Shown: one piece after another, positions 14,990-30,593 of the stretch | How positions within the stretch are numbered: position 1 is the stretch's first letter | Layout: every line of letters starts with the position of its first letter | DNA from: a virus | DNA: 35,861 nucleotides | Virus record (IMG/VR): IMGVR_UViG_3300047994_000425 | Span: 1-35,861 of that record | Strand: one strand, 5' to 3' | Translations under genes and position numbers: made by a program | The notes under the pieces: model-generated | The model's database searches: none | What the model was told of the DNA's origin: nothing | Seen by the model: only the letters and a program-made list of their open reading frames with translations

Positions 14990-15735
14990 GCCGCGCTCCA
15001 TTGTCCGCGGCCGACGTGAACAAAATCGCGCCCGCGCCCGAGCTGCAACACCTGACGCAGTTTCGCGCGCCAGTGCGGGTTGTGTTTCGATTTCGGATGA
15101 TCCGCCATCATGCGGTAAAGATCGGCCAGCGCGACAGGTCCGCGCGCGTCACGCAGCGCCGCGGCGACAACCGAGCGCCATGTCTCGCTCGCCAGCGCCG
15201 CGCCCAAAACGGACCGTGGAAACCGCAGCGGCACGAAATGACCATTTAGCCCGCAGAACGCGAGAATGTCAGCGTCCGCCGTGCCGTAGGCACAGAGCAC
15301 GGTCGGCGCGCCGGAATTGGCTTTCGCGCGCGCGCCATCGGGGGTGTGAAAATTCAGCCGCCCGCGCAGAAACAACAGTGCGCTCGCACGCTCCCACACG
15401 TGCCGGAAAAACGCATCGGTCTCGGTGCGCGCGAAAATGATCGTGGTGCCGCGATCATGATCCGCGAGTTTGTCCAGCCAGCGGCCGATGATGCCGTGCG
15501 TGTAGGGCGGATTCAGCCAGACGCGACCGAACCAGTCTTGCGAGAGGCCGTCATCGGCTTTGGTGAAGCGATGCCGGGCCGTCGGCCAGGGCTGGATGTC
15601 GGGCGTCGCCGGATCGAGATCGAACGATCGATGACCGCCCAGCGCGTCGAGAATCGCGGGCGGCGTCAGCCATTCGATCGTCTGCGGCCGGTTGCTGTGA
15701 TGTCCGCCGATGCCGGCAAAGCGTGAGGTCGTCAT
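14986..15735 (-). CDS. Phage DNA N6-adenine methyltransferase (DNMT/Dam family)
   Basis: This 249-residue protein starts with ATG at 15735. EWLTPPAILDALGG, SFDLDPAT and the catalytic motif NPPY (residues 75-78, in RVWLNPPYTHGIIGRWLDKL) fit the phage DNA N-6-adenine methyltransferase family. The last third (about residue 185 on, ARGPVALADLYRMMADHP) is an added small domain with a HTH-like look, perhaps for DNA binding. It would methylate adenine in phage DNA, as protection from host restriction or for regulation. It is the first gene of a short minus-strand group, divergent from brnT. Confidence 0.85.
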   Translation of the reverse strand: MTTSRFAGIGGHHSNRPQTIEWLTPPAILDALGGHRSFDLDPATPDIQPWPTARHRFTKADDGLSQDWFGRVWLNPPYTHGIIGRWLDKLADHDRGTTIIFARTETDAFFRHVWERASALLFLRGRLNFHTPDGARAKANSGAPTVLCAYGTADADILAFCGLNGHFVPLRFPRSVLGAALASETWRSVVAAALRDARGPVALADLYRMMADHPKSKHNPHWRAKLRQVLQLGRGRDFVHVGRGQWSAA

Positions 15736-16447: not shown

Positions 16448-17434
16448 TCATACGGCGAGCCCCAGACTGCGAATGAGATTCCGGCTGTCCGCCCAGCGCG
16501 CATGGCCGAGCCATGCGGCGAGGAACGTCTCCAGCCGCTTGTGATCACCCGCTTTGCGATACGCCGCGATCTTGCGCCGCGCGCGCGTGACGCTGTCGCG
16601 CCGCAGCAGCTTGTGCGTCGGCCAGATGCGGTAGCCGAGGAAGTTGATTCCGCGGCTGACCGGCGCGATCGACCACTTTGAGAACCGCAAGCCCAGTTCG
16701 CGGCGGGAGAAATCCTCGATGCTCGCTTTCACCGCGCGCAGATGCGCCGGGCTGCGGCCCAGCACCACGAGATCGTCCATGTAGCGAACCCAGAGGCGCT
16801 CACCCAAGGCTTGCTGCAGATGCCGGTCGAGCGTGGCGCCGGTATAGACGTTGGCGAAAATCTGCGAGGTGAGACTGCCGATCGGCAGGCCGATGCCGTC
16901 GCGTGGTACCATCGCTTCGATCAACGTCAGCGTGGCGCGGCAACTGATCTTGGCCTCGATCAGCCGCCAGAGAACATCACGCTGGATCGATGCGAAATAG
17001 GCCGAGAAGTCGGTTTTCAAAAAGTATAACGCTTCGCCCGCCCGTGTTTCCCGCCGCACGTCGGATTGCAGCAGCGTCACGCCGGCATGCGTTCCCTTCC
17101 CCGGACGACAGGCAAACGCGCGCGGCAACAGCGCCCGGTCGAAGATCGGCGCGATGACCAGACACAGCGCCTGCTGCGCCACGCGATCGCGAAACGGCAA
17201 CGCCGAGATCAACCGCAGCTTCGGATCGAAGATGTGGAATTCGTGCGGCGCGCCGGACACATAGGTTCCGTCGCGCATCTCGCACGCGAGGTCGTGGAGG
17301 TTCAGTGCGCTGAATTCCTTGAAGTCGAGATACCCCGGCGTAAGACGCTTGCCCGCGGACGTCAGCCGCAGCGCGGCTTCCATCGTCTTGGGCGATGTGA
17401 TCTGGCCGATGAGATTGCGATATCGCTTCGTCAT
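16448..17434 (-). CDS. DGR reverse transcriptase
   Basis: This 328-residue protein starts with ATG at 17434. It carries the group II-intron-like reverse transcriptase motifs: KTDFSAYFASI with the catalytic Asp142, IGLPIGSLTSQIFANVY (181-197), the active-site YMDD (218-221) and the LGLRFSKWSI and INFLGYRI segments. The motif IGxxxSQ in place of QGxxxSP marks reverse transcriptases of diversity-generating retroelements. It lacks endonuclease and maturase domains. Together with Avd it copies the template-repeat RNA into cDNA, misreading adenines, for transfer into the variable repeats. The order target, avd, TR, RT is that of the Bordetella phage BPP-1 element. Confidence 0.97.
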   Translation of the reverse strand: MTKRYRNLIGQITSPKTMEAALRLTSAGKRLTPGYLDFKEFSALNLHDLACEMRDGTYVSGAPHEFHIFDPKLRLISALPFRDRVAQQALCLVIAPIFDRALLPRAFACRPGKGTHAGVTLLQSDVRRETRAGEALYFLKTDFSAYFASIQRDVLWRLIEAKISCRATLTLIEAMVPRDGIGLPIGSLTSQIFANVYTGATLDRHLQQALGERLWVRYMDDLVVLGRSPAHLRAVKASIEDFSRRELGLRFSKWSIAPVSRGINFLGYRIWPTHKLLRRDSVTRARRKIAAYRKAGDHKRLETFLAAWLGHARWADSRNLIRSLGLAV

Positions 17435-17689
17435 GCGACACCCGAAGAAGAAAAACCGGCCGCGGGTCTCGACGCTTGCGCGCTACGCCCCGTTCTGCCG
17501 GATCGTGAAGCGTGTTCGCCGAAGCAGGACACGCGGGCTGACCACCAACCTTGGTTTTGTGCGGGCGCGCATGCGGCCTGCCGCATGCGCGCCGTGGCCG
17601 GCCGGAGCAACCGTGATCGCATCCGAGCCCGTCTTCCGCGACGCGTCGCCGAGCGACGTCCGCGACGTTTCGCGCAAGCCATAAGGTCG
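17435..17689 (-). ncRNA. DGR RNA spacer between template repeat and reverse transcriptase
   Basis: This 255-base stretch has no convincing gene. In characterised DGRs the RNA continues from the template repeat through a structured spacer that primes cDNA synthesis and binds Avd/RT. Here the spacer includes a perfect 14-bp inverted repeat (17564-17577 and 17580-17593, arm GGCGCGCATGCGGC) with a two-base loop. The RNA ends cannot be set from sequence. Confidence 0.65.
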
Positions 17690-17811
17690 TCACTGCGGCC
17701 CCGCGCTCCAATGTTGTCGTTCGAGTTGTCCGGCCAGTTGTCGACGTTCGCGTAGCGCGAGCCCGCGTTGTCGTCGTTGATCCAGGACCCGCCGAAGATG
17801 GACGCGCGCGG
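17690..17811 (-). repeat. DGR template repeat (TR)
   Basis: A 122-base block, minus strand, is nearly identical to the 3' ends of both target genes. All differences to VR1 (14) and VR2 (15) fall at adenines of this copy, which marks it as template. Read in the target frame it is rich in AAC codons (seven), the usual TR codon because single or double A changes cannot make a stop. It begins six bases after the avd stop codon and ends with the GC-rich GCGCGGGGCCGCAGTGA shared with both VRs. After that it diverges from them (CGACC against YCACC). Confidence 0.97.
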
Positions 17812-17816
17812 CTGCA

Positions 17817-18194
17817 TCATTTCCCCGCCTGCCCTCCAAGCTTCCGTTGCCATGCACCCAGCATCCGTCCCGGCTCTGACAGCAGCTTGAGCGCTGTTTC
17901 GTGTTGGTGGGTTGAGATGGCTTTGATGTTTTTGGTGGCAAGGAAGCGAAGATGAGACCGCAGCGTCGCGAACTCGGCATCGACGGCGTGAAGCCGTGAC
18001 ACCTGTCGCGATTTCGCGGCGTAATAGAGACCCCCGATCGGCTCGAACAGCGCGCGCAACACAACGTCCCGAAGGACGCCATGTTTGCGCGGGCACGTCT
18101 GAAGAACCGGATAAATGTAGCTCACGAAGGCCTCGTATTTTTCGACGATCGCCAGAGCGTCGGTTGAAGTGTTTTCGTCTCTGACGATCGTCAT
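17817..18194 (-). CDS. avd: Avd accessory variability determinant
   Basis: I take the ATG at 18194 (GGTGA eight bases upstream), giving 125 residues, close to BPP-1 bAvd (128). A GTG at 18206 would add four. The sequence is all-helical: VEKYEAFVSYIYPVLQTCPR, KHGVLRDVVLRALFEPIGGL, YYAAKSRQVSRLHAVDAEFA, LRSHLRFLATKN. That fits the four-helix bundle of Avd with its basic, nucleic-acid-binding surface. Avd forms a pentamer that binds the reverse transcriptase and template RNA and is needed for mutagenic retrohoming. It lies between the target gene and the template repeat, as in BPP-1. Confidence 0.92.
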   Translation of the reverse strand: MTIVRDENTSTDALAIVEKYEAFVSYIYPVLQTCPRKHGVLRDVVLRALFEPIGGLYYAAKSRQVSRLHAVDAEFATLRSHLRFLATKNIKAISTHQHETALKLLSEPGRMLGAWQRKLGGQAGK

Positions 18195-18208
18195 GGTGTG
18201 GATCACCC

Positions 18209-18228
18209 GCCGCCGCTGTCGCGACGGC
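18209..18228 (-). promoter_or_regulatory. Hairpin after VR1 (retrohoming recognition element)
   Basis: On the minus strand GCCGTCGC (18228-18221), loop GACA and GCGGCGGC (18216-18209) form an 8-bp stem with one G-T pair. It begins at the last base of the target stop codon, 18 bases past VR1. BPP-1 has an 8-bp stem, 4-base loop hairpin or cruciform in the same place that is needed for target recognition. The same element follows VR2. Confidence 0.8.
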
Positions 18229-19142
18229 TAGACAGGTTGCAGGTGATCACTGCGGCCCCGCGCACCAATGCTGCCGCTCGAGCTGCCCGGCCAGAAGTCG
18301 ACGACCGCGTAGCGCGAGCCCGCGTTGTCGGCGACGATCCAGGACCCGCCGAAGAGGGACGCGCGCGGCTCGTCGGGATCTCCGTCATGGCCCCACACCC
18401 ACATGTTGCCGGTGGCCTGCATCAGGCCGAAGCGGCTCGTGCGCGCCGCGTCCAGTTTCGTGATCTTCGGTTTGGAAGCGGCGGCGGTCTTTTCCGTAAC
18501 GCCGATCGCGGCACAGGCGAATTCCTCGAAGCTGAGAAGTCCCTTGCCGTGATGCGCCATCACCTTGCACGCGGTGTCGTAATCGAACTTTCGAAACGCT
18601 TTGCCGGTCGAAGGATCAACGGGGCAATCGTCGCCGTCGGCAATTGGAACGCCGAGCTTGCTCGTCCCCATACTGAAGTGCGCGACACCCGTCAGATAGA
18701 TGTCGCACCAGAACGGTTTGATCGTGGCGGATTCAACGCGAACCATGCCGCGGGGATCGGCGCATGCGGGACGGAAGTTGCGATCCCACACCGAGAACGG
18801 ATTGATCGCAGGTATGTCATCGCCGCCGGCGCGCGCGGAGGCGCTGCCGCCGGGCGTAAAATGAAAGCCGCCAATGACAGCGTCGGTCAACGTCGTCATC
18901 GGCACGATGCTGAGCGTGCCAAGATCGCAGATCACCGCGTAGTCTGTCCCCGCGACGGGATGCCCCGAGGGGAACGTCACGGGCGTGTCCCGGTCGAACG
19001 TTGTCCCGTTGAACGATGTTCCGGCCTTGATGCCGACAGCGGCGCGGTGGCTCACGTAAATCGCGGGCGACGACGGGTCTTCTTTCGTCAGCGTCGGCAG
19101 TAACACGGTCTCAACTGGCTTTGCCTTTGCGGTCGCGGTCAT
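18228..19142 (-). CDS. DGR variable target protein 1 (lectin-fold-type, Mtd-like)
   Basis: This 304-residue protein starts with ATG at 19142 behind GGAG. The C-terminal half looks like the C-type-lectin-like fold of DGR targets: VIGGFHFTP, INPFSVWDRNFRPACADPRG, TGNMWVWGHDGDPD, then the variable segment with GGSW, AGSRYA, FWPG and GARGRSDH. Variable residues alternate with fixed ones and would form the ligand-binding face. The N-terminal part (about residues 1-85) is separate and may be an attachment or trimerisation domain. It has no signal peptide or membrane segment. The gene lies after a methyltransferase and a SANT-like gene, not in the tail module. Its product could be a receptor-binding protein, but that is inferred. 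Confidence 0.93.
   Translation of the reverse strand: MTATAKAKPVETVLLPTLTKEDPSSPAIYVSHRAAVGIKAGTSFNGTTFDRDTPVTFPSGHPVAGTDYAVICDLGTLSIVPMTTLTDAVIGGFHFTPGGSASARAGGDDIPAINPFSVWDRNFRPACADPRGMVRVESATIKPFWCDIYLTGVAHFSMGTSKLGVPIADGDDCPVDPSTGKAFRKFDYDTACKVMAHHGKGLLSFEEFACAAIGVTEKTAAASKPKITKLDAARTSRFGLMQATGNMWVWGHDGDPDEPRASLFGGSWIVADNAGSRYAVVDFWPGSSSGSIGARGRSDHLQPV
18247..18368 (-). repeat. DGR variable repeat VR1
   Basis: This block aligns without gaps to the template repeat over 122 bases. Fourteen differences are seen, all where the template has A: aac to gtc twice, aac to ttc, aac to agc three times, gac to ggc twice, gac to gcc, atc to ctc and gga to ggt. No C, G or T of the template is changed. 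The last 17 bases are constant and match the initiation of mutagenic homing region. It encodes the C-terminal part of target protein 1. Confidence 0.97.
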
Positions 19143-19145
19143 GTG

Positions 19146-19544
19146 TCACGTCTCCATGTGAATCCGGCCACCCGCCGGCAGGGTCGGTAAGGTGATTTGC
19201 GAAATCGATGCCCGTTTCTGATCGAGCGCGCTGCGTCCGGGCAGAGGATCGCCCAGGACGGCAGCCGTGATGGTGGTGTGCGTCAGCGCCGCGCGACGGG
19301 CCGCTTCGGTTTTCAACCGCGCTGTGATGGCATCGGACGCTGATGAAGCCGCCGATGGCGGAGGCGCGGGGCGCGGCAAACCCGATACGCGCAGATGCGG
19401 CGGCATGTAGAAGCGGATCTGGCAGGCCACGGCGGTGCGGCCGGGCATCCTCAATGCCACCTTTTGCCAGTTCCGGTCATGCGCATCGGCCAGTCGCAAC
19501 AGCCGCTCGACTTCGGGCGCGGTCCACAATGGAATCTGTTTCAT
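19146..19544 (-). CDS. Small SANT/Myb-like DNA-binding protein
   Basis: The ATG at 19544 overlaps the methyltransferase stop as ATGA and gives 132 residues. The N-terminal part, LWTAPEVERLLRLADAHDRN then WQKVALRMPGRTAVACQIRF, has the spaced Trp residues and the gRT..qC..R end of SANT/Myb-type helix-turn-helix domains. The rest is Pro/Ala-rich and likely disordered, ending with LPTLPAGGRIHMET. The last codons carry the ribosome-binding site of target protein 1, so the two genes are probably co-transcribed. A regulatory role is plausible but unproven. Confidence 0.65.
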   Translation of the reverse strand: MKQIPLWTAPEVERLLRLADAHDRNWQKVALRMPGRTAVACQIRFYMPPHLRVSGLPRPAPPPSAASSASDAITARLKTEAARRAALTHTTITAAVLGDPLPGRSALDQKRASISQITLPTLPAGGRIHMET

Positions 19545-21454
19545 TCCGCCGCCTCCAGATAGAAATCCGGCGGAGCGCGCCGCGCGATCTCGCGCGGTTT
19601 GAAATTCGCGCGCACCAGCGCTTCGGCCATCGGCGGGCAAACGCTGTTGCCGCACTTCGAGACCTGATCGGTCTTCGTGATCGGCCTGCCGTCAGGTCTG
19701 CGGTCGATGATGTAGCTGTCATCGAAACCCTGTGCGCGAAACAGTTCGCGCGGCGTCAGCATCCGCATGCCGATGTCGGTGATCACATAAGGCTCGCCGT
19801 CGATATCGACGGTCACCACGCCGAGACGATCCTTCGTGGTGACCGTGTGTGCGGGACCGGAAACGTCTTGGCCCTCGCCGGTCCCGTAATATTTCGAGAT
19901 GAATGCTGCAGACAGTTGCGTTTTGCCGGCGCCATCCGCCATCACCGTGCGTGCAGGTTCTTCCAGTGATGAGCCGACGCCAGTCCCGAACTGGCGCAGG
20001 AGATTCGCGGCAACCAGCCCCTGATGCGATCCGGTTTGCAGAATGGTGGAGACTGGTTCTTCTGCCGAACGTCCCGGATGGCCTTCGCCGGTTCGGCTGT
20101 CGATGTTGTGCTGAGCGAGGAATGCGGCGACGGTGTACATATGCGCGCCGCCCGCGGTGATGGTGTGTGTCGGCTCATCGCCCGCTGTGTGCGGCTTCTG
20201 CGCATTGCGCATGACCTGCAGATGCGGCGCGACCAGAGCGTGTTTCACGCCGCCGGCCACCACGGTGCCGAGCGGCTTGTCGAGACCAGGCACGCGCGGT
20301 TCTTGGCCTTCGCGCTCGCCGTAACCTGTCTGGACCAGCGTCGGAACGATGATCTGATTTTGATCTTTGCGTGACGCGGCGATCGTATGGATCGGCTCTC
20401 CCGCCTCTCGCGATGATCCGCCATGCTGAGCCGCGCTGACGAACGGAGTGACAACAACGCTGTCGGCTTTCGCTGTCAGCGTTTGGACCGGCGCATCCGC
20501 ATTGCGCGGTTCGGTCTGCCCCATGCGTCCGCCAACGCCAGTCACGAACGGGACGGCGACCGCTTTTTCGCCGCGGTGCGCGCCGGTCACGGTCATCATC
20601 GGGTCTTCGACGGATTCGGTCCGGTCGCCGCCCTGATGCGTGAGGTTGACGATGAATGGCTTCGCCGCGTCGAGAACGTAGCGCTTCACGCCCTTGGCGA
20701 TGCGCGCCATCGTCGCGGGCTGAAGGGGCCGGACAGCGCGGAGGCCGAACTTCGCCATGATCTCTTCGGACGTTTCGAAGATCGACGGACAAGGCATCGA
20801 CCAGTCGATGATTTCTGCGGCCGTTCGCCATGGCTTCAGCTTGCCTGACGTTACGGCTGCCGATTTCGGATCGCCATGCGTCGGCTCGGGCCAGACGATC
20901 GGCTCGCCGTCATTGCGGGCGATCAGGAACAGGCGCTTGCGAATGGTTGGCGCGCCGTAGTCGCAGGCGCGAAGCTCGCGCCATTCGAGCCTGTAGCCAA
21001 GCTTGCGGAGTTCGTTCGTCCATTGACGGAACGTGTCGCCCTTCAGCGCCGTGTCGGGCTTGTTGTCCGCACCCAGCGGTCCCCACGTCTGAAACTCTTC
21101 GACGTTCTCAAGGATGATGACGCGCGGTCCGCCTCTGCGGCGCTTCGCCCAGCGAACAACGACCCAGGCCAGATCGCGGATGCCCTTCTCGACGGGCTTG
21201 CCGCCCTTGGCCTTGGAAAAATGTTTGCAGTCCGGACTGAACCAGCCGAGCCCGATATCACCATCGATGTCGTCCGGATCGATTTTCCAGACGTTGTTGC
21301 AAAGGTGTTTCGTGTCGGGATGGTTGACCTCGTGCATCGCCAGCGCGACGTCGTCGTGATTGATCGCGATGTCCGGCGAAATGCCGAGCGCCATGTAAAT
21401 GCCGGTCGACGCGCCTCCCCCGCCCGCGAAATTATCGACGATCAGTTCGCGCAT
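19541..21454 (-). CDS. C5-cytosine DNA methyltransferase with internal repeat region
   Basis: I take the ATG at 21454 (TGATG overlap, GGAGG eight bases upstream); the GTG at 21457 is an alternative. It has about 637 residues. Motif I is DNFAGGGGASTG. The catalytic Cys is in FSPDCKHFSKAKGG, an SPDC form of the PC motif. ENV is in VIILENVEEF, the QxRxR-like motif in TIRKRLFLIA, and motifs IX/X in QVSKCGNSVCPPMAEALV. Residues 267-548, where the target recognition domain should be, are eight degenerate repeats of 32-39 residues. It is 1.5 times the usual length of such enzymes. It would methylate phage DNA, probably against host restriction. Confidence 0.9.
   Translation of the reverse strand: MRELIVDNFAGGGGASTGIYMALGISPDIAINHDDVALAMHEVNHPDTKHLCNNVWKIDPDDIDGDIGLGWFSPDCKHFSKAKGGKPVEKGIRDLAWVVVRWAKRRRGGPRVIILENVEEFQTWGPLGADNKPDTALKGDTFRQWTNELRKLGYRLEWRELRACDYGAPTIRKRLFLIARNDGEPIVWPEPTHGDPKSAAVTSGKLKPWRTAAEIIDWSMPCPSIFETSEEIMAKFGLRAVRPLQPATMARIAKGVKRYVLDAAKPFIVNLTHQGGDRTESVEDPMMTVTGAHRGEKAVAVPFVTGVGGRMGQTEPRNADAPVQTLTAKADSVVVTPFVSAAQHGGSSREAGEPIHTIAASRKDQNQIIVPTLVQTGYGEREGQEPRVPGLDKPLGTVVAGGVKHALVAPHLQVMRNAQKPHTAGDEPTHTITAGGAHMYTVAAFLAQHNIDSRTGEGHPGRSAEEPVSTILQTGSHQGLVAANLLRQFGTGVGSSLEEPARTVMADGAGKTQLSAAFISKYYGTGEGQDVSGPAHTVTTKDRLGVVTVDIDGEPYVITDIGMRMLTPRELFRAQGFDDSYIIDRRPDGRPITKTDQVSKCGNSVCPPMAEALVRANFKPREIARRAPPDFYLEAAE
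19814..20659 (-). repeat. Eight degenerate 32-39-residue repeats in the cytosine methyltransferase
   Basis: The coded repeats start near PFIVNLTHQGG, VPFVTGVGGRM, TPFVSAAQHGG, PTLVQTGYGER, APHLQVMRNAQ, AAFLAQHNIDS, AANLLRQFGTG and AAFISKYYGTG. Each continues with a (E)P..T(v/i) segment (DPMMTVTG, APVQTLTA, EPIHTIAA, KPLGTVVA, EPTHTITA, EPVSTILQ, EPARTVMA, GPAHTVTT). They stand between the catalytic and C-terminal methyltransferase motifs. Confidence 0.75.
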
Positions 21455-22707
21455 CACGCAACCTCCGCATTGCGACGGAGGAACGGCGGAATATCGAGCG
21501 GACCATCGACAGGCAAATTTGCCGCTGACGCCGAAACCGCATCGGATGACTCATGGCCCATAGTTTTTATTTCACGTGAAACTTCTTGAGCTTGATTTCC
21601 CCACGCATCGAATCCGGGCGGAAGCGGGTTGTCTTGATCGACGCGCGCGAAGAGCTCGAGAACTCGAACGCCGGCCATCGAAGCAATCATCTTGCGGTAG
21701 TGATCTGGCTTGCGAGAATGCTCGCGGGCGCGCTCGCGATGATTGCTTGTGAACTTCTCATCCGAGCGGGGCTTCGGTAATCCCGTGCCACGTTTGAACA
21801 TCAGGAGGATTTCATCCTGATCGCGGACAAGAATGCCGCCGCCGATATCGTCCGGGTGTTCTTCATCGGTCTTCGTCCAGACAAAGGCCGTGCAGTAGTT
21901 GTCGAAGCCCCACGCTCGCGCGATCGCCCACGCCAACGGAAGTTCAACTTCGATATCGAACGCCTCTGGTCCGCCCTCAAGCTCGATGGGGAGCGTGACC
22001 TTATGCAGCGCGAACATGTGCGCGCGCGGGATCCAGAGAAACAGCCACGCATCTGGCAGCACACGATCAGCGACGGGCACCTTCATGATCTCGTCCCACG
22101 TCATCGTGGGATAATGATTTTCATAGGATCGATTGGTGACCCCTTGCTTGCGGAGCCATGGCGGGTCCGCGTAGATGCAGGCATATTTCCTCGTTCCGGA
22201 TAGCTCGAAGCTGGTTTCAGAAAGTTCGTTCGCCAGATTGCGCCGGTTGACCCGCTGTTCTTCTTCAGCGCCCACTTTCAACAGATTGGTCGTCAAGCGT
22301 GCATCGTTGAGCGCGCTTTCTTCCTTCCACGCGCCGATCATGCCCTCGAATTTCTCGGCGGGAACGGCAGCAAGCTTTTGCGCGCGGGAGGAAAGCTTCC
22401 GATCGATGCCGGCTTCCGCCAAGGTACCGGCCTGAGAAACCTGTTCCTCCGGAGAACAGGTTTTCTCGGAGGGGCGACCGCCGCGGTTCAGACCGAATTC
22501 TTTTTTCTGGGCCGCTATCAATTCGCCCAATCGCCGCTCGCCCCGCATGCGAAGCTCGATCGCCTGCATTTCCAGATCGCGGTTCTTGGCGATGCGAGCA
22601 GCGGCGCGCATCATCTCGGCCGTGTCTTGCAGGGCCATCACTTCATCGACCGAAACAGCGGCGGCCAGCGCGCGGCAAGCTTCATCGTATTTGACGAGAG
22701 ATGACAT
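21454..22707 (-). CDS. MT-A70-family N6-adenine methyltransferase
   Basis: The ATG at 22707 (TGATG with the preceding stop) gives 417 residues. The N-terminal 165 residues are helical and charged (ARIAKNRDLEMQAIELRMRG), as in phage MT-A70 proteins with a ParB/DNA-binding-like front part. The catalytic part has YACIYADPPW (DPPW at 181-184), then SYENHYPTMTWDEIMKVPV, WLFLWIPRAHM and VLELFAR near the end, all typical of MT-A70 enzymes that methylate adenine N6. It is the second adenine methyltransferase of this phage and overlaps the cytosine methyltransferase gene, so modification genes form one transcription unit. Confidence 0.9.
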   Translation of the reverse strand: MSSLVKYDEACRALAAAVSVDEVMALQDTAEMMRAAARIAKNRDLEMQAIELRMRGERRLGELIAAQKKEFGLNRGGRPSEKTCSPEEQVSQAGTLAEAGIDRKLSSRAQKLAAVPAEKFEGMIGAWKEESALNDARLTTNLLKVGAEEEQRVNRRNLANELSETSFELSGTRKYACIYADPPWLRKQGVTNRSYENHYPTMTWDEIMKVPVADRVLPDAWLFLWIPRAHMFALHKVTLPIELEGGPEAFDIEVELPLAWAIARAWGFDNYCTAFVWTKTDEEHPDDIGGGILVRDQDEILLMFKRGTGLPKPRSDEKFTSNHRERAREHSRKPDHYRKMIASMAGVRVLELFARVDQDNPLPPGFDAWGNQAQEVSREIKTMGHESSDAVSASAANLPVDGPLDIPPFLRRNAEVA

Positions 22708-22946
22708 CAGATGAAGCCCTCTTTCTGCGCCAGCCATTCGGGCAACGTGACGTTGACCATCGGCAGTCGCAAGATCTGGCCGTGACGATCCGTGCCGGAC
22801 GTGGTCCGGCCGATATCGTGGAAGGATTTGAAGTGCTGCCGGGCGATCCAGATCGCGTGCGAATCCTCGCCGTCGATCGACACGCGGCGCGCGCCGGCGG
22901 TTTCTTTATGCAGGGCGAGCATGACTTCCACGGGTGCGCTGCTCAT
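22707..22946 (-). CDS. Small phage protein, function unknown
   Basis: The ATG at 22946 overlaps the previous stop (ATGA) and the stop overlaps the methyltransferase start (TGATG), so the gene is coupled on both sides. Its 79 residues begin MSSAPVEVMLALHKETAGAR and end with LPEWLAQKEGFI. The part GEDSHAIWIARQHFKSFHDI then LRLPMVNVTLPEWLA looks like a small acidic globular protein. I do not recognise a family. Confidence 0.6.
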   Translation of the reverse strand: MSSAPVEVMLALHKETAGARRVSIDGEDSHAIWIARQHFKSFHDIGRTTSGTDRHGQILRLPMVNVTLPEWLAQKEGFI

Positions 22947-23125
22947 CTCACCACCTGAACAGGATCGCATCGAAGCGATTCGTGCAGGTTTGGGACGAAG
23001 TAGTCGCGAAACGCGTCCGGGCTGTCGAAGCCGTCGGCAATCGCCTCTGCACAAAAGCCGTTGGCCTTGTCGCCGGACGTTTCGGCGTGTTGATGCAGAT
23101 CGAGTGTGATACGAATTCCGGTCAC
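22943..23125 (-). CDS. Small phage protein, function unknown
   Basis: A GTG at 23125 overlapping the AAA+ gene stop (GTGA) starts a 60-residue frame, VTGIRITLDLHQHAETSGDK, continuing with NGFCAEAIADGFDSPDAFRD. The stop overlaps the next start (ATGA). Coupling at both ends and a normal protein composition support it. No family is recognised. Confidence 0.5.
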   Translation of the reverse strand: MTGIRITLDLHQHAETSGDKANGFCAEAIADGFDSPDAFRDYFVPNLHESLRCDPVQVVR

Positions 23126-24090: not shown

Positions 24091-24764
24091 CAGTCCTCGC
24101 TCTCGCCCATGCCGTCAGAGCCCGACTCTTTCCGGTAGCCTTCATCGCAACGCGCGCGGCGCGGATCGCCGAACGGAAACGGATTCTCGGTGATGGGTCG
24201 GTTGTCGCGAAACATTTGCGCGCCATAGGTAAACGCGCCATCAAGCGTCACATCGGGCACTTCGCGCGGCGGTCGCTGGCCCTTGCGATAGTCAGGATTG
24301 TCGGCCGAAGCGGCCTTGCGCGCTTTCTCGACATAGGGCTCGACATGCGCTGTGCCGTCCTTGTCGCGATAAACGCGAACCGGCTCGCCGCCCATACGCA
24401 GGATGATGTCGCCTTCCGGCGGCGCGAGCTGCTTCATACTCTCCAGCAGTCCCTCGCGCGTCAGAGAATCCTTCGCCATCTCGCTGAGCGCCCGGAACAG
24501 CGGCGGCTCGTCATCCATGCCGATGGCGTGCTCGTAGGTCTGAAAAATTGCGTCGGCTTCCTGCCGGTCGTGCGGTTTCATTTTGCGGCGGCGCTTCAAG
24601 AGCGAAATTGCTTTGGTGTTGAAGCCTTCCGCTTTTGCTGCCGCCATCAGCGCGGAATTGAGATCGCTGATATCCTTCTTGTCGGCGTCGTACTGCTCGG
24701 ACCGTTCGATGATTTCGAGCGGCCGCTTCCCCTGAATGGTATTCTTGCCGATCGACATGCTCAT
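24090..24764 (-). CDS. GapR-like (DUF2312-type) DNA-binding protein with long C-terminal extension
   Basis: The ATG at 24764 (ATGA overlap) gives 224 residues. Residues about 15-85, IERSEQYDADKKDISDLNSA then AAKAEGFNTKAISLLKRRRK and AIFQTYEHAIGM, follow the GapR plan: a coiled coil, a helix ending in basic residues, then the Y.HALGM-like end. GapR binds overtwisted, AT-rich DNA and supports replication in alphaproteobacteria. The remaining 140 residues are not part of GapR and contain PEGDIILRMGGEPVRVYRDK. The protein lies directly before the AAA+ gene. The GapR likeness is by recognition of the pattern and moderately sure. Confidence 0.65.
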   Translation of the reverse strand: MSMSIGKNTIQGKRPLEIIERSEQYDADKKDISDLNSALMAAAKAEGFNTKAISLLKRRRKMKPHDRQEADAIFQTYEHAIGMDDEPPLFRALSEMAKDSLTREGLLESMKQLAPPEGDIILRMGGEPVRVYRDKDGTAHVEPYVEKARKAASADNPDYRKGQRPPREVPDVTLDGAFTYGAQMFRDNRPITENPFPFGDPRRARCDEGYRKESGSDGMGESED

Positions 24765-25072
24765 GTCCCCTCGCCTCCAATGACTTTCAGCGGTTCGCTT
24801 TGCCGCAGTTTCGGGTCGGCGTGCAGCGCCGCGCGGCGAAACGCCTCCGCCATCTTCAATGCATGCGACGGCTGCATGCCCACATACATTTTGGGTCCCA
24901 CCTGTCCGGGGACGTTGACGCGCACGATCGCCATGTCGGCATCCGCCGAAACCACCATCTCGTGCGTCATCAGCACGCACCGCGCGCGGGCGATGTCGGT
25001 CTCGGCGGCCGCAAGCGCGGGTGCGTCGCCGCCCTGGCTCTCGACTGCAAAATTCGCGCGCGGCAGTTTCAT
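24761..25072 (-). CDS. Phage early protein, function unknown
   Basis: The ATG at 25072 overlaps the preceding stop (ATGA) and gives 103 residues, beginning MKLPRANFAVESQGGDAPAL. The central part, VLMTHEMVVSADADMAIVRV then NVPGQVGPKMYVGMQPSHAL, is beta-rich, followed by a helix (KMAEAFRRAALHA). No family is recognised. Tight coupling with both neighbours shows it is part of the early operon. Confidence 0.6.
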   Translation of the reverse strand: MKLPRANFAVESQGGDAPALAAAETDIARARCVLMTHEMVVSADADMAIVRVNVPGQVGPKMYVGMQPSHALKMAEAFRRAALHADPKLRQSEPLKVIGGEGT

Positions 25073-25602
25073 GATGTGGCCTTTCGGCGCTTGCGCAGAT
25101 CGCGATCGAGTTCGGCGAGGATCAGCGCGCCCGCGCGCACCAGATCGCGGCGATCGTCCTGCGGCTTCCACCACTCCCGTGACCACGGCCAGTCGGGACC
25201 GGGATGCCCATGCACACACCTGTCGACTTCCGCCGACTGCCGCCGCGCTGGCGTGAGCGCATACATGGCACCCGCCGCCGCAAGCTCGCCGCGCAGATGA
25301 CTGTCGTCATGCGCCGCATCGAAGCCTTCGACACTCATCTGGCGCTGGCGCTCGGCGATGATGGCCTGCATCGACGGCGACAGCGGCACGCGGATGTGCA
25401 GCGCCTCGAACAGCCGGCGCAGCAGATAGCCGCGCACGATCGACACCACCGTGAACAGTCCCGCGATCATGAAGTTCTGCGACAGCGGCGGCGAAAACCC
25501 GAACAGCGGAAAGATCAGAAGCTGCGCGCCGATCGCGACGCCGAAACCGATCGCCGTATTGCCGACGGTCTCCACCATCGACATGAGTCTGGATTGCTTC
25601 AT
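25069..25602 (-). CDS. DUF7220-type membrane protein fused to a small phage domain
   Basis: This 177-residue protein starts with ATG at 25602. Residues 1-70, MKQSRLMSMVETVGNTAIGF with two hydrophobic stretches (about 15-33 and 43-60) and IVRGYLLRRLFEAL, match a small two-helix membrane family common in phages of alphaproteobacteria. The second half, AIIAERQRQMSVEGFDAAHD then DSHLRGELAAAGAMYAL, is a separate soluble motif seen in other phage proteins (ERQRQ...EG.D..HDD.H...L). The fusion is of interest but no function is established. Confidence 0.65.
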   Translation of the reverse strand: MKQSRLMSMVETVGNTAIGFGVAIGAQLLIFPLFGFSPPLSQNFMIAGLFTVVSIVRGYLLRRLFEALHIRVPLSPSMQAIIAERQRQMSVEGFDAAHDDSHLRGELAAAGAMYALTPARRQSAEVDRCVHGHPGPDWPWSREWWKPQDDRRDLVRAGALILAELDRDLRKRRKATS

Positions 25603-25847
25603 CGCGCCCGCACCCGTGTGTGCTCGCGCGGCAGCGCCGCCATGTCGCCGAACGGCTGTGCCATCGGGTCATAAAGCGAATCCGGCGCATCGATCCGGAT
25701 GCGGTCGCGGTCGATCGCGCGCACGAGCAGAAGGACACCCACACCCAGTGCCAGCGAGATCGCGAACAGCGCGAACATCACCAGCCGCATCGGATCGGGT
25801 ACGCAGGCTTGCACAAGATCGAGAAGACGATCGGCGTTCGGTGACAT
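25599..25847 (-). CDS. Small single-pass membrane protein
   Basis: The ATG at 25847 gives 82 residues and the stop overlaps the next start (ATGA). One hydrophobic helix is visible (about residues 20-42, LVMFALFAISLALGVGVLLL), with a short N-terminal part and a charged C-terminal tail (IDRDRIRIDAPDS). A holin role was considered, but its place in the early operon next to another membrane protein argues against it. Function unknown. Confidence 0.55.
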   Translation of the reverse strand: MSPNADRLLDLVQACVPDPMRLVMFALFAISLALGVGVLLLVRAIDRDRIRIDAPDSLYDPMAQPFGDMAALPREHTRVRAR

Positions 25848-25944
25848 GGCTTTGCGCCCCTTGCGGATCAGAAAAAACAAAACGCAGACGCAACACCGCA
25901 ACACGCACAAGCCGCCCTGCGAGGACGGGATTCGAAACTTTGCG

Positions 25945-26523
25945 CTACCGGCGCGCGGGTTTGGGTCCGGGCTGATCCGACGAACGACTTCCCCGTTTCG
26001 GGGTCATCCCCACCAGGGCGCGAGCTTTCGCGCTAGCCGGATAAGCCCGAGCCGGCGCAGACTGCGCGCCATAAAATTCTTCATCCTGAAAAACCGCGGC
26101 ATACGGAATCGCGCGCGCATCGACCGCTCTCCTGTCGGCATCCAAAAGCGCCTTCAGCTTGCGCCGCGCGGCGCGCTGCTCGGAGGCGAGATCGATGGAT
26201 TTGAGAAACGCGGTGAGCGCGATCCACCAGCGAGGGATGGCATCTGCCATCACAGCCGCCAGAAACTCGCGGCCCCGGTCGCTGCGCAAAAGTTCGGCCA
26301 ATGCGTCCGCCGGAATGACGACCTCGCCGGAGAGCCAGTATTCGCAGGCGCGTAGCGAATAGCCTGTGAGATCAGCAAGATGATGCGCGGTCTTGACCGG
26401 AAACAAGTCACGCGATTTTTGCATGACGGAGGAATTCAACCGCAAGGCTCTGCGGCGATTGCCGCAATGATCTGCGGTGACGTAATTTGCGCGGTTCTGC
26501 CTATTGGACGACGGTGCGGTCAT
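25945..26523 (-). CDS. Phage early protein with HTH-like N-terminal region
   Basis: The ATG at 26523 gives 192 residues; an internal ATG at 26424 (MQKSRDLFPVKTAHHLADLT) has no ribosome-binding site. Residues about 40-75, KTAHHLADLTGYSLRACEYW then LSGEVVIPADALAELLR, resemble the HTH region of small phage regulators. The rest is basic and helical (LASEQRAARRKLKALLDADR), with a Pro/Arg/Ser-rich tail. It lies in the early operon two genes downstream of the Cro-like gene, as CII or similar regulators do. No family is assigned. Confidence 0.55.
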   Translation of the reverse strand: MTAPSSNRQNRANYVTADHCGNRRRALRLNSSVMQKSRDLFPVKTAHHLADLTGYSLRACEYWLSGEVVIPADALAELLRSDRGREFLAAVMADAIPRWWIALTAFLKSIDLASEQRAARRKLKALLDADRRAVDARAIPYAAVFQDEEFYGAQSAPARAYPASAKARALVGMTPKRGSRSSDQPGPKPARR

Positions 26524-26526
26524 GAC

Positions 26527-26679
26527 CTACGCCCCGACAGCGGCGGCAGCGCCGCCGAGACCGCGCAGACTCTCGATGACCTTGAGCGGGCGTGGAAGGA
26601 TCTCGGCACATGATCTGAGCCGGGCGATCAGGCGTTTGACATCATCGCCGACGGCGAAGCGGATGCTGAGCGCGCTCAT
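26527..26679 (-). CDS. Very small early protein (50 residues), tentative
   Basis: An ATG at 26679, three bases after the upstream stop, starts a 50-codon frame, MSALSIRFAVGDDVKRLIAR and onward, that ends in TAG three bases before the next start codon. It fills the gap between two genes exactly and reads like a short helical protein (VKRLIARLRSCAEIL). Support is from spacing and composition only. Confidence 0.4.
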   Translation of the reverse strand: MSALSIRFAVGDDVKRLIARLRSCAEILPRPLKVIESLRGLGGAAAAVGA

Positions 26680-26682
26680 GCC

Positions 26683-26943
26683 TTACGCCTCGCTCGCTGT
26701 AACCGAATCGTCAGCATCTTCCGGAGCCCGCATGAAATCGGCTTCCGTAATGGGCAATTCTTCTTTGCGGGCATGCATTAAAAGTTTGAGGGAGTCGGCG
26801 TGAGGAATGATTCCGCCTGTTCCTTGGCGCACGCCGGACGGATACGTCCATCGGTAGATGCGAGAAATATGCTTACCGGTAACTCGCGCCGCGGTTTCAT
26901 AACCGATGATGTCGAGAATCGATTTGGCCGGGTTCATGCGCAT
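26683..26943 (-). CDS. Cro-like repressor / early regulator
   Basis: This 86-residue protein (ATG at 26943, or 26937) is the first gene of the leftward early operon. It diverges from the repressor gene across the operator cluster. AKSILDIIGYETAARVTGKH then ISRIYRWTYP is a helix-turn-helix, and GGIIPHADSLKLLMHARKEE is the conserved tail of Cro/YdaS-type phage regulators in which a helix follows the IP. It probably competes with the repressor for the TTTGCGA operators and supports the lytic path. The role is inferred from position and fold. Confidence 0.7.
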   Translation of the reverse strand: MRMNPAKSILDIIGYETAARVTGKHISRIYRWTYPSGVRQGTGGIIPHADSLKLLMHARKEELPITEADFMRAPEDADDSVTASEA

Positions 26944-26953
26944 GGGCCCAGTC

Positions 26954-27027
26954 TTTGCGATAATCGCGAGTATCGGTCAATCATAATTTGCGATTGTCGC
27001 GATATATTTATTTGCGAATATCGCGAA
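26954..27027. promoter_or_regulatory. Three-site operator cluster between cro-like and repressor genes
   Basis: Three copies of a 17-bp near-palindrome lie between the two start codons: TTTGCGATAATCGCGAG (26954-26970), TTTGCGATTGTCGCGAT (26987-27003) and TTTGCGAATATCGCGAA (27011-27027). The dyad is TTYGCGAT-N-ATCGCGAA-like, with 33 and 24 bp spacing between starts. The third site ends 10 bases before the repressor ATG, so it must overlap that promoter. The arrangement is comparable to OR of lambda. Confidence 0.85.
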
Positions 27028-27037
27028 TACTAATAAG

Positions 27038-27736
27038 ATGAGCAACTTACGTGATGCGCAGAAGCAATGGCTCCTTGATCACCTCGATGCCCGTGGTCGC
27101 GGCGCGCGTGGCGCGTTAGCAATTTACATGGGCGTCCGCGCTGATGTGATCACACGAATGACGAATCGAGACGGCTCTAAGGAGACGCGCGAGATATCCT
27201 TTGAAGAACTGGTCAAGATGGCCGAGTTTTTCGAAGATGACCCACCAGGTTTGGCTGCAGCGCGCGCCGGAATTGCGCCAACGGTCGCACGCTCTAAAAC
27301 TGCCCTACCACCCATCGGCGATCAGTATGGGCCGAAGGACTTCCGCATTTTTAGTGCGGCTGAGGGAGGTTCCGGTGAAATCATTCGATCTGTTGAGCCT
27401 GTCGACTGGTGGCCAAGGCCGATCGAAGTCCAGCAGGTCAAGGGGGCCTACGGAATGTACATTGTTGGCGATTCAATGGTCCCAGAATTTCGACCCGGAC
27501 ACGTGGCCGTTATCAATCCGAATCTGCCGCACGTCGGAGACAAGCCGTACATTTTTTATGCTGAAACAGAGGGCGGCGAAGTTCGCGCAACCGTGAAGCT
27601 CTTGCGCAGGCAAACCGGGGATCTTTGGCATGTCACCCAGCACAACCCGCCGCCGGGACAAAAGAACGACTTCACGCTTTCCAAAAAACTCTGGCGGGAA
27701 GCTCATCGGATTGTCGGTCGGCAAGATCCATCGTAG
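27038..27736 (+). CDS. S24-family phage repressor (CI/LexA-like)
   Basis: This 232-residue protein starts with ATG at 27038. The N-terminal part is a HTH (ARGALAIYMGVRADVITRMT, ISFEELVKMAEFF). The C-terminal domain is of the LexA/S24 type: AYGMYIVGDSMVPEFRPGHV with Ser146, and ATVKLLRRQ with Lys187, the expected serine-lysine pair. The segment where the cleaved Ala-Gly bond is usual reads SAAEGGSGE (106-114), so a canonical cleavage site is not evident and RecA-induced autocleavage is uncertain. It would keep the lytic operon silent by binding the nearby dyads. Base composition is lower in GC than its neighbours. Confidence 0.88.
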   Translation: MSNLRDAQKQWLLDHLDARGRGARGALAIYMGVRADVITRMTNRDGSKETREISFEELVKMAEFFEDDPPGLAAARAGIAPTVARSKTALPPIGDQYGPKDFRIFSAAEGGSGEIIRSVEPVDWWPRPIEVQQVKGAYGMYIVGDSMVPEFRPGHVAVINPNLPHVGDKPYIFYAETEGGEVRATVKLLRRQTGDLWHVTQHNPPPGQKNDFTLSKKLWREAHRIVGRQDPS

Positions 27737-27757
27737 ACGGAGCGACGTGTCGCGATC

Positions 27758-28414
27758 TCAGAATCTGAAGTTCACGCCGATCTTGCCGGTATCGAGATCA
27801 AGCGTGCCGGACGGGAGACCGCCGACAAATACGGTGCTCAGGTAGTTTTGGCTCTGGAAATGATAACGCATGTATTCGGCCTTGACCGATATATTGCGTG
27901 TGACGCCGTACTCCAGGCCAGCGCCGATCGCGTAGCCGCCGTGAACGCGGGTCTCTGAAGCGGTCACGCCACCGGCGGTTGCGCCAAGCTCATTCTGTCC
28001 AACCGCATAGCCGCCTTTGCCGTAAACCAGAAAATTGTCGAGCGCCACGCCGAGACGAGCAGTTGCCGAGCCAAAGGCATTGATCCTGTCAAACACAGAA
28101 ACTCCTGCTCCCAAGGAAATGGTTTGTCCGATGCGAGATCCCGAACCCTCGACCTCAACGCCCGCGACGAGATTTGAGATTTGAGCGTTGTAGCCAACAG
28201 TGCCGCCGCCGAAGCCGCCATTGAAGCTGGCATTGGCACCAGCGGTGCCACCGGTGGCCCGGGCGTAGCCGCCGATCGCGCCGACGTAGAGCCCGCTCCA
28301 GTCGTATACCTGCGACACCACCGCCGACGGTTGATAAATGGGACCGGCGAGATCGCCAGCCAACGCAGGGCAAATTGACATGAAAACAATAATAACCGCC
28401 AAAATTCGTTTCAC
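27758..28414 (-). CDS. Outer-membrane beta-barrel protein (Omp25/31 type), lysogenic conversion candidate
   Basis: This 218-residue protein starts with GTG at 28414 after AAAAAGGG. It has a signal peptide (KRILAVIIVFMSICPALA), then DWSGLYVGAIGGYARATGG, many alternating glycine-rich strands (LGVALDNFLVYGKGGYAVGQ) and a C-terminal Phe (IGVNFRF), the sorting signal of outer-membrane barrels. It belongs to the porin-like OMP family of rhizobia and brucellae. The gene is on its own, convergent to the repressor and between two operator clusters. This fits a gene expressed in the lysogen that alters the cell surface, as lom does in lambda. Confidence 0.88.
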   Translation of the reverse strand: MKRILAVIIVFMSICPALAGDLAGPIYQPSAVVSQVYDWSGLYVGAIGGYARATGGTAGANASFNGGFGGGTVGYNAQISNLVAGVEVEGSGSRIGQTISLGAGVSVFDRINAFGSATARLGVALDNFLVYGKGGYAVGQNELGATAGGVTASETRVHGGYAIGAGLEYGVTRNISVKAEYMRYHFQSQNYLSTVFVGGLPSGTLDLDTGKIGVNFRF

Positions 28415-28542
28415 AACTCTACACCCTTTTTAAATATGACCGAATTAGGGCACGATTTTAAAGGCCCGGCAACTTGATTCTGAGTGGTTCGTTAACGGCT
28501 TAAAAGGTCAAAATGCGGTCGCAAACCGGTGTAAATCCGTTA

Positions 28543-28592
28543 TTTGCGATTATCGCGATTTAGTAGTTGACTAAATTTGCGATTATCGCGAA
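28543..28592. promoter_or_regulatory. Two-site operator cluster before the rightward operon
   Basis: TTTGCGATTATCGCGAT (28543-28559) and TTTGCGATTATCGCGAA (28576-28592) repeat the 17-bp dyad of the repressor/cro region 1.5 kb away. Their 33-bp spacing equals that of the first two sites there. They lie 48-97 bases before the first gene of the plus-strand operon. The same repressor very likely controls that operon, as at OL of lambda. Confidence 0.85.
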
Positions 28593-28639
28593 TGTGCCTC
28601 CATCACCTCGGGACACACCCGACAACGATGGAGCGCAAG

Positions 28640-28855
28640 ATGGTCCAATCCAAGCCGATCAAATCCGAAATCGCCCTCGCTCTCTACAAATCGCTGGAAG
28701 CCGGTTTCCGCATGAAGCGCCGCGCCCTTCAGAGCACCGCCGCCACGTTTCTCGGCCGCGAGGTGAGCGACACCGAATTCGAGGCCGGCATGTCAGAACT
28801 CGGCGATCGCGTGATGCGCCTTCGCGGCGTCGGCGGCTACATCTGTTTCGCCTGA
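28640..28855 (+). CDS. Small protein of the rightward early operon, function unknown
   Basis: I take the ATG at 28640, six bases after GGAG; it gives 71 residues, MVQSKPIKSEIALALYKSLE and onward. An upstream ATG at 28628 is possible. The sequence FRMKRRALQSTAATFLGREV then SDTEFEAGMSELGDRVMRLR is helical and moderately basic. It is the first gene after the two-site operator. I do not recognise a family. Confidence 0.6.
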   Translation: MVQSKPIKSEIALALYKSLEAGFRMKRRALQSTAATFLGREVSDTEFEAGMSELGDRVMRLRGVGGYICFA

Positions 28856-28867
28856 GGGGACCAAACC

Positions 28868-29089
28868 ATGTCCAATGCCGCTGCCTTCCACACAGCCGAA
28901 TGCCGCCGCAATCTTTTGCAGATCGCGGCGGACGCCGCCCATCCGCAAAGCCCGCTGGTGTTTCGGCTGCTGCGCAGCTTTGATGCCGCCGTGCGCGCCG
29001 CCTCCGCTCAAAGTCACACGCGCGAGGGCGACGCACCGCCCGCCCCGATCGTCATCCCCTTCCCCGCACCCATAAGGATGTCGCCATGA
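28868..29089 (+). CDS. Small protein of the rightward operon, function unknown
   Basis: This 73-residue protein starts with ATG at 28868 with GGGGA upstream and ends in an ATGA overlap with the next gene. The N-terminal half is helical (ECRRNLLQIAADAAHPQSPL, FRLLRSFDAAVRAA) and the end is Pro-rich (APPAPIVIPFPAPI-like). No family is recognised. Confidence 0.55.
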   Translation: MSNAAAFHTAECRRNLLQIAADAAHPQSPLVFRLLRSFDAAVRAASAQSHTREGDAPPAPIVIPFPAPIRMSP

Positions 29090-29382
29090 CGCCACGCCGC
29101 AGTCACACGCTTCGCCGCGCCGCCAATCCCGGCGTTGCCACCACGTTTCGCCTGCAGCCGGCCATTCCCTCCTTCATCGACTCGTCGCTGGTCCGTCCGC
29201 GCGCCTCGCTGAGTGGCGCGGCGATCACGCGCCAAATGGCGAGCGACATGCGCGAGGCAGCGCTTCGCGAAGGCGGCATCACTCGCGACGACCTTGAGGT
29301 GTTGGGCTGGACCTCGGCGCAGATCGACAAGTATGTCGCCGCGGCGCGTGAGCAGGCCCAGGCGTTATCGGGTCTCAACTGA
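29086..29382 (+). CDS. Small protein of the rightward operon, function unknown
   Basis: The ATG at 29086 overlaps the previous stop and gives 98 residues. The N-terminus is basic (TPRRSHTLRRAANPG). The second half, DMREAALREGGITRDDLEVL then GWTSAQIDKYVAAAREQAQA, is a helical segment that looks like a small DNA- or protein-binding domain. The stop overlaps the next ATG by one base. No family is recognised. Confidence 0.55.
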   Translation: MTPRRSHTLRRAANPGVATTFRLQPAIPSFIDSSLVRPRASLSGAAITRQMASDMREAALREGGITRDDLEVLGWTSAQIDKYVAAAREQAQALSGLN

Positions 29383-29585
29383 TGGCGATCAGCATCTCGG
29401 CCAGCGACCGCGTCCTCAAAGCCATCGGCGATGGCGAGGCGCTTAGTTCTGGCGCAATCGCCGCGCGCATCGACATTCTCGCGCGCGCCACCGTGCGGCA
29501 TGTGCTGGCCGAACTGGTCCGCAACGGCCGCCTGCACATGAGCGGCCCGATGGGCAAGCGCGTGTACAGCCGCGCGAACGTTTGA
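29382..29585 (+). CDS. Small winged-helix DNA-binding protein
   Basis: This 67-residue protein starts at 29382. SASDRVLKAIGDGEALSSGA, IAARIDILARATVRHVLAEL and VRNGRLHMSGPMGKRVYSR follow the winged-helix pattern, with a recognition helix (ARATVRHVLAELVRN) and a hairpin wing. It probably regulates nearby genes. The next gene, target protein 2, follows after a 62-base gap, so it may be co-transcribed. Confidence 0.65.
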   Translation: MAISISASDRVLKAIGDGEALSSGAIAARIDILARATVRHVLAELVRNGRLHMSGPMGKRVYSRANV

Positions 29586-29647
29586 CGGGCGAGAGGCTGC
29601 ACACGCTTCACGGCCATAACAACACCACATCACACGGAGACGCCGAC

Positions 29648-30574
29648 ATGAATTCACCCGCAAAAAACCTCAAGACCGATCACGCCGCGCAGATGCTGGT
29701 GAAGGCAGACCCGTCCAGCCCCGCGCTGTTCGTCACCGGACCGAACACGATCTCGATCAAAGCCGGCACCCGTTTCGCCGGCTATACGTTCACGGAGGAT
29801 GCTCCGGTCGTCATGCCTGCGGGCGGACTTATGCCCGGTTGTGACTATGCCGTCACCGTCGCGGATGGTGTGGGCGCGGCCATCAAGCTGGATGCTTCGC
29901 CAGCGGCATCGACCTCGCCGGGAGCTTTGCTCGGAGGCTTTCATTTCGCGCCTGGTGGCAAAGCATTGGCGCGGGCGGGCGGGGACACGACACCGGCGAT
30001 CAATCCGTTTTCAATTTGGGATATCAACTTTCGTCCGTCATGCGCTGATCCTCGCGGCATGGCCCGCGTTGAGACGGCCGCGATCAAACCGTTCTGGTGC
30101 GACATCTATCTGCTCGGCGTCGACCACCTTGTCGACGGAACGAGCAAATGTGATGTGACGATCGCGGACGGCGACGATCCGCCAATCAGACCCAACGGCA
30201 AATATTTCGCGGGGCTTGACTACAAGACGGCCGTCGACGTGATGAAGCACCACGGCAAAACTTTGTTGAGCCATGACGAGTTCCGCGACGCCGCGTTTGG
30301 CGTGACCGAAAAGACATCGGCCCCCAAAGACCCGAAAATTACCAAGCTCGATGCGGCGCGCACCAGCCGGTTCGGCCTGATGCAGGCCACCGGCAACATG
30401 TGGGTGTGGGGCCACGACGGCGATCCCGACGCGCCGCGCGCGTCCCTCTTCGGCGGGTCCTGGTTCGACGACGGCAACGCGGGCTCGCGCTGCGCGTACG
30501 TCGGCCGCTGGCCGGACAACTCGTGCGTCGGCATTGGGGCGCGGGGCCGCAGTGACCACCTGCAGCTTGTTTAG
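29648..30574 (+). CDS. DGR variable target protein 2 (remote target, lectin-fold-type)
   Basis: The ATG at 29648 lies behind GGAG, in a leader similar to that of target 1 (GGAGACG in both). The 308-residue protein is a full-length paralogue of target protein 1: KADPSSPALFVTG, SIKAGTRFAGYTF, LGGFHFAPGG, INPFSIWDINFRPSCADPRG and TGNMWVWGHDGDPDAPRASL all have counterparts there. The body differs clearly while the last 50 residues are fixed except at variable positions. It has no signal peptide. It lies about 12 kb from the reverse transcriptase on the other strand, in the operon controlled by the two-site operator. Its role may be a second ligand-binding protein; location in the virion or cell is unknown. 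Confidence 0.93.
   Translation: MNSPAKNLKTDHAAQMLVKADPSSPALFVTGPNTISIKAGTRFAGYTFTEDAPVVMPAGGLMPGCDYAVTVADGVGAAIKLDASPAASTSPGALLGGFHFAPGGKALARAGGDTTPAINPFSIWDINFRPSCADPRGMARVETAAIKPFWCDIYLLGVDHLVDGTSKCDVTIADGDDPPIRPNGKYFAGLDYKTAVDVMKHHGKTLLSHDEFRDAAFGVTEKTSAPKDPKITKLDAARTSRFGLMQATGNMWVWGHDGDPDAPRASLFGGSWFDDGNAGSRCAYVGRWPDNSCVGIGARGRSDHLQLV
30434..30555 (+). repeat. DGR variable repeat VR2 (remote)
   Basis: This 122-base block aligns without gaps to the template repeat at 17690-17811. Fifteen differences are seen, all at template adenines: aac to cgc, tgc and ggc, aac to tac and gac, gac to ggc twice, gac to gtc, tac to tgc, atc to ctc and ttc, and gga to ggg. Codons containing no A are unchanged. 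The constant GC-rich end GCGCGGGGCCGCAGTGA is the same as in VR1 and the template. Confidence 0.97.
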
Positions 30575-30593
30575 CCGCCGCGACAGCGGCGGC
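30574..30593 (+). promoter_or_regulatory. Hairpin after VR2 (retrohoming recognition element)
   Basis: GCCGCCGC (30574-30581), loop GACA and GCGGCGGC (30586-30593) form a perfect 8-bp stem that begins at the last base of the stop codon, 18 bases past VR2. Position, stem length, loop size and loop sequence equal those after VR1. Confidence 0.82.

Follow-up and report, generated by a model that had tools for sequence, protein, structure and literature searches.

A complete BPP-1-type diversity-generating retroelement with one template repeat and two Mtd-like target genes in a temperate phage

The retroelement and its two target genes

The sequence analysed here (the window) is the whole 35,861-nucleotide IMG/VR virus record IMGVR_UViG_3300047994_000425. 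It carries a diversity-generating retroelement (DGR) with a single template repeat (TR), two target genes that each end in a variable repeat (VR), and the repressor and integrase genes of a prophage. The relevant features are the following:

16448–17434, minus strand: DGR reverse transcriptase (RT), 328 aa, YMDD intact; Pfam RVT_1, PHROG 1423, 56% identity to BPP-1 Brt with aligned motifs
17684–17813, minus strand: TR; 88% identical to VR1 and to VR2, differences adenine-specific
17817–18206, minus strand: avd (accessory variability determinant); Pfam bAvd 1.3e-27, PHROG 3206
18209–18228, minus strand: hairpin after VR1, GCCGTCGC-GACA-GCGGCGGC; stem with one T.G pair, overlapping the stop codon
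18228–19142, minus strand: target 1, Mtd-like C-type-lectin protein, 304 aa; PHROG 11262 5.7e-77, without N-terminal beta-prism
18241–18370, minus strand: VR1, 3' end of target 1; 14 of 28 TR adenines and 2 of 102 other bases changed
26954–27028: three operator-like sites of the TTTGCGATTATCGCGAAT type, between a cro-like gene and the repressor
27038–27736, plus strand: S24-type phage repressor; Pfam Peptidase_S24 4.1e-5, PHROG 4 (transcriptional repressor) 1e-10
28543–28593: two operator-like sites of the same TTTGCGATTATCGCGAAT type, upstream of rightward genes including target 2
29648–30574, plus strand: target 2, Mtd-like protein, 308 aa; PHROG 11262 1.8e-84, Pfam mtd_2nd 1.6e-7 (above the cut-off), without N-terminal beta-prism
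30433–30561, plus strand: VR2, 3' end of target 2; 16 of 28 TR adenines and 1 of 102 other bases changed
30574–30593, plus strand: hairpin after VR2, GCCGCCGC-GACA-GCGGCGGC; perfect 8-bp stem
31119–32432, minus strand: tyrosine integrase; Pfam Phage_integrase 1.5e-5, score 25.2, just below the 27.1 cut-off, with homologous integrases in relatives
32534–32608: tRNA-Asn (ARAGORN), beside the integrase, at the right end of the prophage

Target 1, avd, TR and RT all lie on the minus strand in the BPP-1 order, with an Avd of the bAvd type and the TR immediately after the avd stop codon. Profile searches assigned the RT to RVT_1 (6e-17) and to the PHROG reverse transcriptase family (2.5e-107), and its YMDD and GLPIGSLTSQ motifs are both intact. 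Target 1 matches PDB 1yu3 at 8e-46 across Mtd residues 56–378; both targets match PHROG 11262 and the PDB Mtd chains 1yu0–1yu4, the Mtd match running through the VR end, and on these sequence matches we class both as Mtd homologues. The locus therefore combines a DGR-type RT with an intact active site, adenine-specific differences between TR and VR, and VRs at the 3' termini of C-type-lectin targets. Its target-avd-TR-RT order on one strand, with a hairpin after the VR and no such hairpin within 60 bases after the TR, is that of a BPP-1-type cassette. The prophage DGR is real, complete and of the BPP-1 kind.

The initial annotation had proposed just such an element, with one TR and two full-length target genes in the same temperate phage, and our analysis supports it: every part was found, with coordinates that match those given there to within a few bases (TR-like identity spans 17684–17813 rather than 17690–17811, and VR2 30433–30561 rather than 30434–30555), and the gene order agrees with that of the annotated BPP-1 record (AY029185; mtd-avd-TR-brt). 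The protein identities to BPP-1 are 56% for the RT, 44% for Avd and about 42% for Mtd, and the two systems share the TR right after the avd stop, the VR at the target 3' end and a hairpin overlapping the stop codon. However, BPP-1 has one DGR target where the window has two, its Mtd has the N-terminal beta-prism that the window targets lack, its hairpin loop is GAAA instead of GACA and its TR-RT spacer is shorter. Moreover, its cassette lies after the tail genes, at the end opposite cI, whereas that of the window is upstream of terminase.

The variable repeats and their hairpins

The TR contains 28 adenines, and in the VR reading frame 27 of them occupy first or second codon positions, so that mutagenesis would almost always alter the amino acid. 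The changes listed above are strongly adenine-specific in both repeats (Fisher p 1.7e-9 for VR1 and 3.8e-12 for VR2). Compared with each other, VR1 and VR2 share 101 of the 102 non-adenine positions but only 11 of the 28 adenine positions, whereas upstream of the VRs the two target genes are just 69% identical over 760 aligned bases; both VRs have thus been rewritten, or homogenised, by the shared TR since the genes diverged. Part of this likeness may reflect domain conservation, given that 86 of the 96 bases directly 5' of the VR are alike between the target genes. The pattern within the VRs, however, is the one produced when a single template overwrites them again and again. Close to the 3' end, a non-adenine difference (GAC in the TR and CAC in the VR, Asp to His) recurs in many relatives and, by analogy with IMH* and IMH in BPP-1, looks like a fixed difference between the 3' ends of TR and VR. 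Further repeats in the window were chance-like only. An AlphaFold model of target 2 had a mean pLDDT of 71.9 and fell below 50 at the lectin end, too weak in the VR domain for mapping the variable residues.

The two targets are paralogues, as chance or a plain gene duplication without a retroelement would also have it, but the adenine-biased differences (p about 1e-9 and 4e-12) together with the RT, Avd, TR and hairpins leave that explanation with practically no probability; the adenine bias refutes duplication without a DGR.

The hairpins at the VR ends did not figure in the initial annotation. Both have an 8-bp stem and a GACA loop and begin at the last base of the target stop codon, so that VR1 and VR2 are each followed shortly 3' by a GC-rich stem in the 7–10 bp range with a GRNA loop, the consensus that phage DGR hairpin loops follow (PMC3240598). 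In BPP-1 the hairpin is required for homing and its stem sequence may vary (Guo et al., PMC3240598). The single T.G pair in the VR1 stem counts against the BPP-1-type account. The same element occurs in BPP-1 and in relatives of the window (loci labelled L below), where, measured from the VR end, it was present after 60 of 69 family VRs, with 32 distinct stems, as against 10 of 1,380 random stretches. Counting from stop codons gave 57 of 74 and missed targets whose frame continues beyond the hairpin.

Targets 1 and 2 lie about 11 kb apart on opposite strands, and a remote copy in the relative L096 is cut short inside its VR, so it could be argued that only VR1 is active and that VR2 is the relic of an old duplication that no longer receives cDNA. 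We consider this very improbable. The non-adenine identity of the two VRs persists in genes that have otherwise diverged, VR2 has the better of the two hairpins, the reading frame of target 2 is open, and both VRs vary between the relatives L037 and L038. Orientation, for its part, is immaterial in BPP-1, where inversion of the target in the phage genome did no harm to homing (PMC3240598). VR2 as a dead copy was accordingly rejected on its non-adenine identity, hairpin and open frame.

The initial annotation had also suggested comparing close relatives for VR differences at a constant TR, and two pairs of relatives show them. L073 and L075 differ at 20 positions in 11,152 bp; all 20 are VR positions and 19 fall on TR adenines, which indicates that this DGR family is active. 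L037 and L038, a two-target pair that is 92% identical over most of its length, have identical TRs and differ in both VRs. Across the family, TR and VR differ at 822 of 1,644 TR adenines and at 52 of 6,993 other bases. An exact-pattern search of IMG/VR with the TR/VR 3' end gave no match, so that no near-identical relative of the window was found, and it is from these other relatives that we infer that its DGR copy is very probably active too. The L073 and L075 records, 99.8% identical over the 11,152 bp and different solely in the VR (L073:8344–8431), are in themselves a natural snapshot of DGR activity.

Genomic setting and two-target relatives

Leftward from the repressor the window holds cro-like, GapR-like, ATPase and DNA methyltransferase genes and then the DGR. 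Genes for a replication initiator, antiterminator, terminase, portal, protease and capsid follow, and the last is a tail gene, at which the record ends; the DGR cassette thus sits upstream of antiterminator and terminase. The record begins within tail genes (1–1300), and most of the prophage tail and lysis genes are missing from it. At the other end, a GAF-GGDEF-EAL gene beyond the tRNA-Asn looks like host DNA. Three DNA methyltransferase genes surround the DGR (14986–15735, 19541–21457 and 21454–22737, minus strand), and many relatives also have methyltransferase genes flanking the cassette. Homologues of the window's neighbouring genes stand in the same relation to the DGR in L082, L079, L029, L015 and L047, in which the cassette is likewise among early genes before terminase or portal, and in several relatives a repressor faces away from the DGR a few kb upstream.

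The operator-like motif is a near-palindrome of 17–18 bp with 6 matches in the window, against 0.09 expected by chance. Five near-identical sites are divided between the two intergenic stretches that flank the S24 repressor and an outer-membrane-protein gene. The TTTGCGATTATCGCGAAT-type near-palindromes are probably repressor operators, and we infer that target 2 would be under repressor control. A simple sigma-70 promoter scan ahead of the target 2 operon found nothing above chance. The outer-membrane beta-barrel gene itself (27758–28414, minus strand; OMP_b-brl, 4e-14) lies between repressor and target 2 in the immunity region, and it is possible that it is a lysogenic conversion gene acting at the cell surface.

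The initial annotation had called the combination of two targets uncommon in a temperate phage of this type. This does not hold for the family, in which 20 of 49 loci have two VRs matching their own TR and 16 of 37 whole records searched have two Mtd-type genes; the two-target arrangement is ordinary here. Multi-VR DGRs made up about a seventh of those in one survey (PMC3521204) and 28.6% in another (PMC6642488), and about 13% with two target genes is the figure quoted in PMC10743442. In most two-target loci both targets stand in tandem before avd. Remote second targets are found in the window, L095, L087, L096 and L056, and at 1–1.5 kb in L097, L098 and L033; the remote target lies 0.3–1.9 kb from the repressor gene in the window, L095, L087 and L098, and in the last three the S24 or XRE repressor gene is 0.3–1.4 kb off with the remote target on its diverging side. 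Among the relatives compared, a second target on the strand opposite to the cassette occurs only in the window and in L096. In the latter (L096:6407–7612, minus strand) the remote inverted Mtd target, cut inside its VR, continues in frame into an XRE-type helix-turn-helix protein, giving an open frame of 401 aa that is either an assembly chimera or a fusion left by a natural deletion.

Among the closest known counterparts are the Mtd/DGR loci of alphaproteobacterial prophages (for example Bradyrhizobium sp. YR681, L081, a one-target form; an Afipia MAG, L079; a Rhodopseudomonas MAG, L087), whose RTs are 71–85% identical to that of the window. They have the same gene order, hairpins and short Mtd targets, often two of them, and are placed among early genes; the opposite-strand second target sets the window and the truncated L096 apart from them. 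The phage DGRs of nd4 and nd12 (tentaclins, PMC10743442) also combine one TR with two C-type-lectin targets, but these have two different architectures, whereas the targets in the window are paralogues, one of them remote.

Targets without a beta-prism and their possible roles

Both targets have the second (beta-sandwich) and C-type-lectin domains of Mtd, as given by mtd_2nd and the PDB match to residues 56–378, and both lack the beta-prism (PF18454, Mtd residues 5–41), which the same library detects in BPP-1 Mtd. Through the beta-prism, Mtd is presumably anchored on the tail fibre (PMC10743442). Pfam Mtd_N gave no matches in 18 whole records, and likewise none in control genomes, so that this search does not count as evidence of absence; the absence in the two targets rests on their alignment with Mtd and on the detection in BPP-1 Mtd. 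In most family targets the homologous part is preceded by fewer than about 25 residues, while the distant L041 and L044 have long extensions. The Mtd homologues in the structural modules of BPP-1, S-CBS3 and P12026 also have N-terminal extensions ahead of the homologous part. The absence of the beta-prism implies that either another fibre takes up these short lectins or they work away from the tail.

We favour, with a probability of about 80%, a BPP-1-type DGR in which one TR diversifies two Mtd-type genes whose products are most likely receptor-binding lectins. The order of the mutagenic steps would follow that of BPP-1: the RT-Avd complex would make an adenine-mutated cDNA from the TR transcript, and this cDNA would replace the VR that ends either Mtd-type gene, each being marked as a homing target by its GC-rich 3' end and the hairpin at the stop codon. 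Target 2 would be a paralogue that was moved across the repressor and inverted, and it would remain a homing target because nothing more than the VR and the hairpin is required for homing, in either orientation. Two receptor-binding lectins would then vary independently and provide two samplings of the host surface. Receptor binding is our best guess for the role of both targets. However, the missing beta-prism and the position of the cassette before antiterminator and terminase sit badly with a plain tail-tip role.

These two features, and the N-terminal extensions of the structural-module homologues, are what could be expected if the targets were not tail tips at all and were instead anchor-less Mtd-derived lectins, made early after induction from repressor-controlled operons and with a function inside the cell or on its surface, such as binding and masking receptors or recognising competitors. 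We regard this as unlikely, with a real but minor share of the probability. The cassette is among early genes in the window and in the five relatives named above, target 2 lies downstream of operator-like sites, and remote second targets are near the repressor in the window, L095, L087 and L098. On the other hand, the targets showed no recognisable signal peptide or other effector domain, the name of their PHROG family is tail protein, and a lectin without beta-prism could be held by another fibre, the tail-fibre genes being outside the window. Furthermore, gene position does not prove the time of expression. It is similarly doubtful, as a history, that the DGR was taken over from the tail module into repressor-controlled early regions and that its targets lost the tail anchor and now work either outside the virion or ahead of its assembly; if this were true, the DGR would diversify a protein used in induction or lysogeny and not in adsorption.

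The machinery described here is of a known kind. Its less ordinary features are the early position, which several relatives share, the lack of the anchor domain in both targets, and the place of target 2 behind two operator-like sites that match those in front of the repressor. With receptor-binding lectins as the products, one TR feeding two paralogous genes in a temperate phage would lend itself naturally to the sampling of two binding sites simultaneously, and the DGR family supplies many natural replicates of it. The consistent early position and the missing N-terminal domain also raise the question of whether all phage DGR targets are tail proteins.
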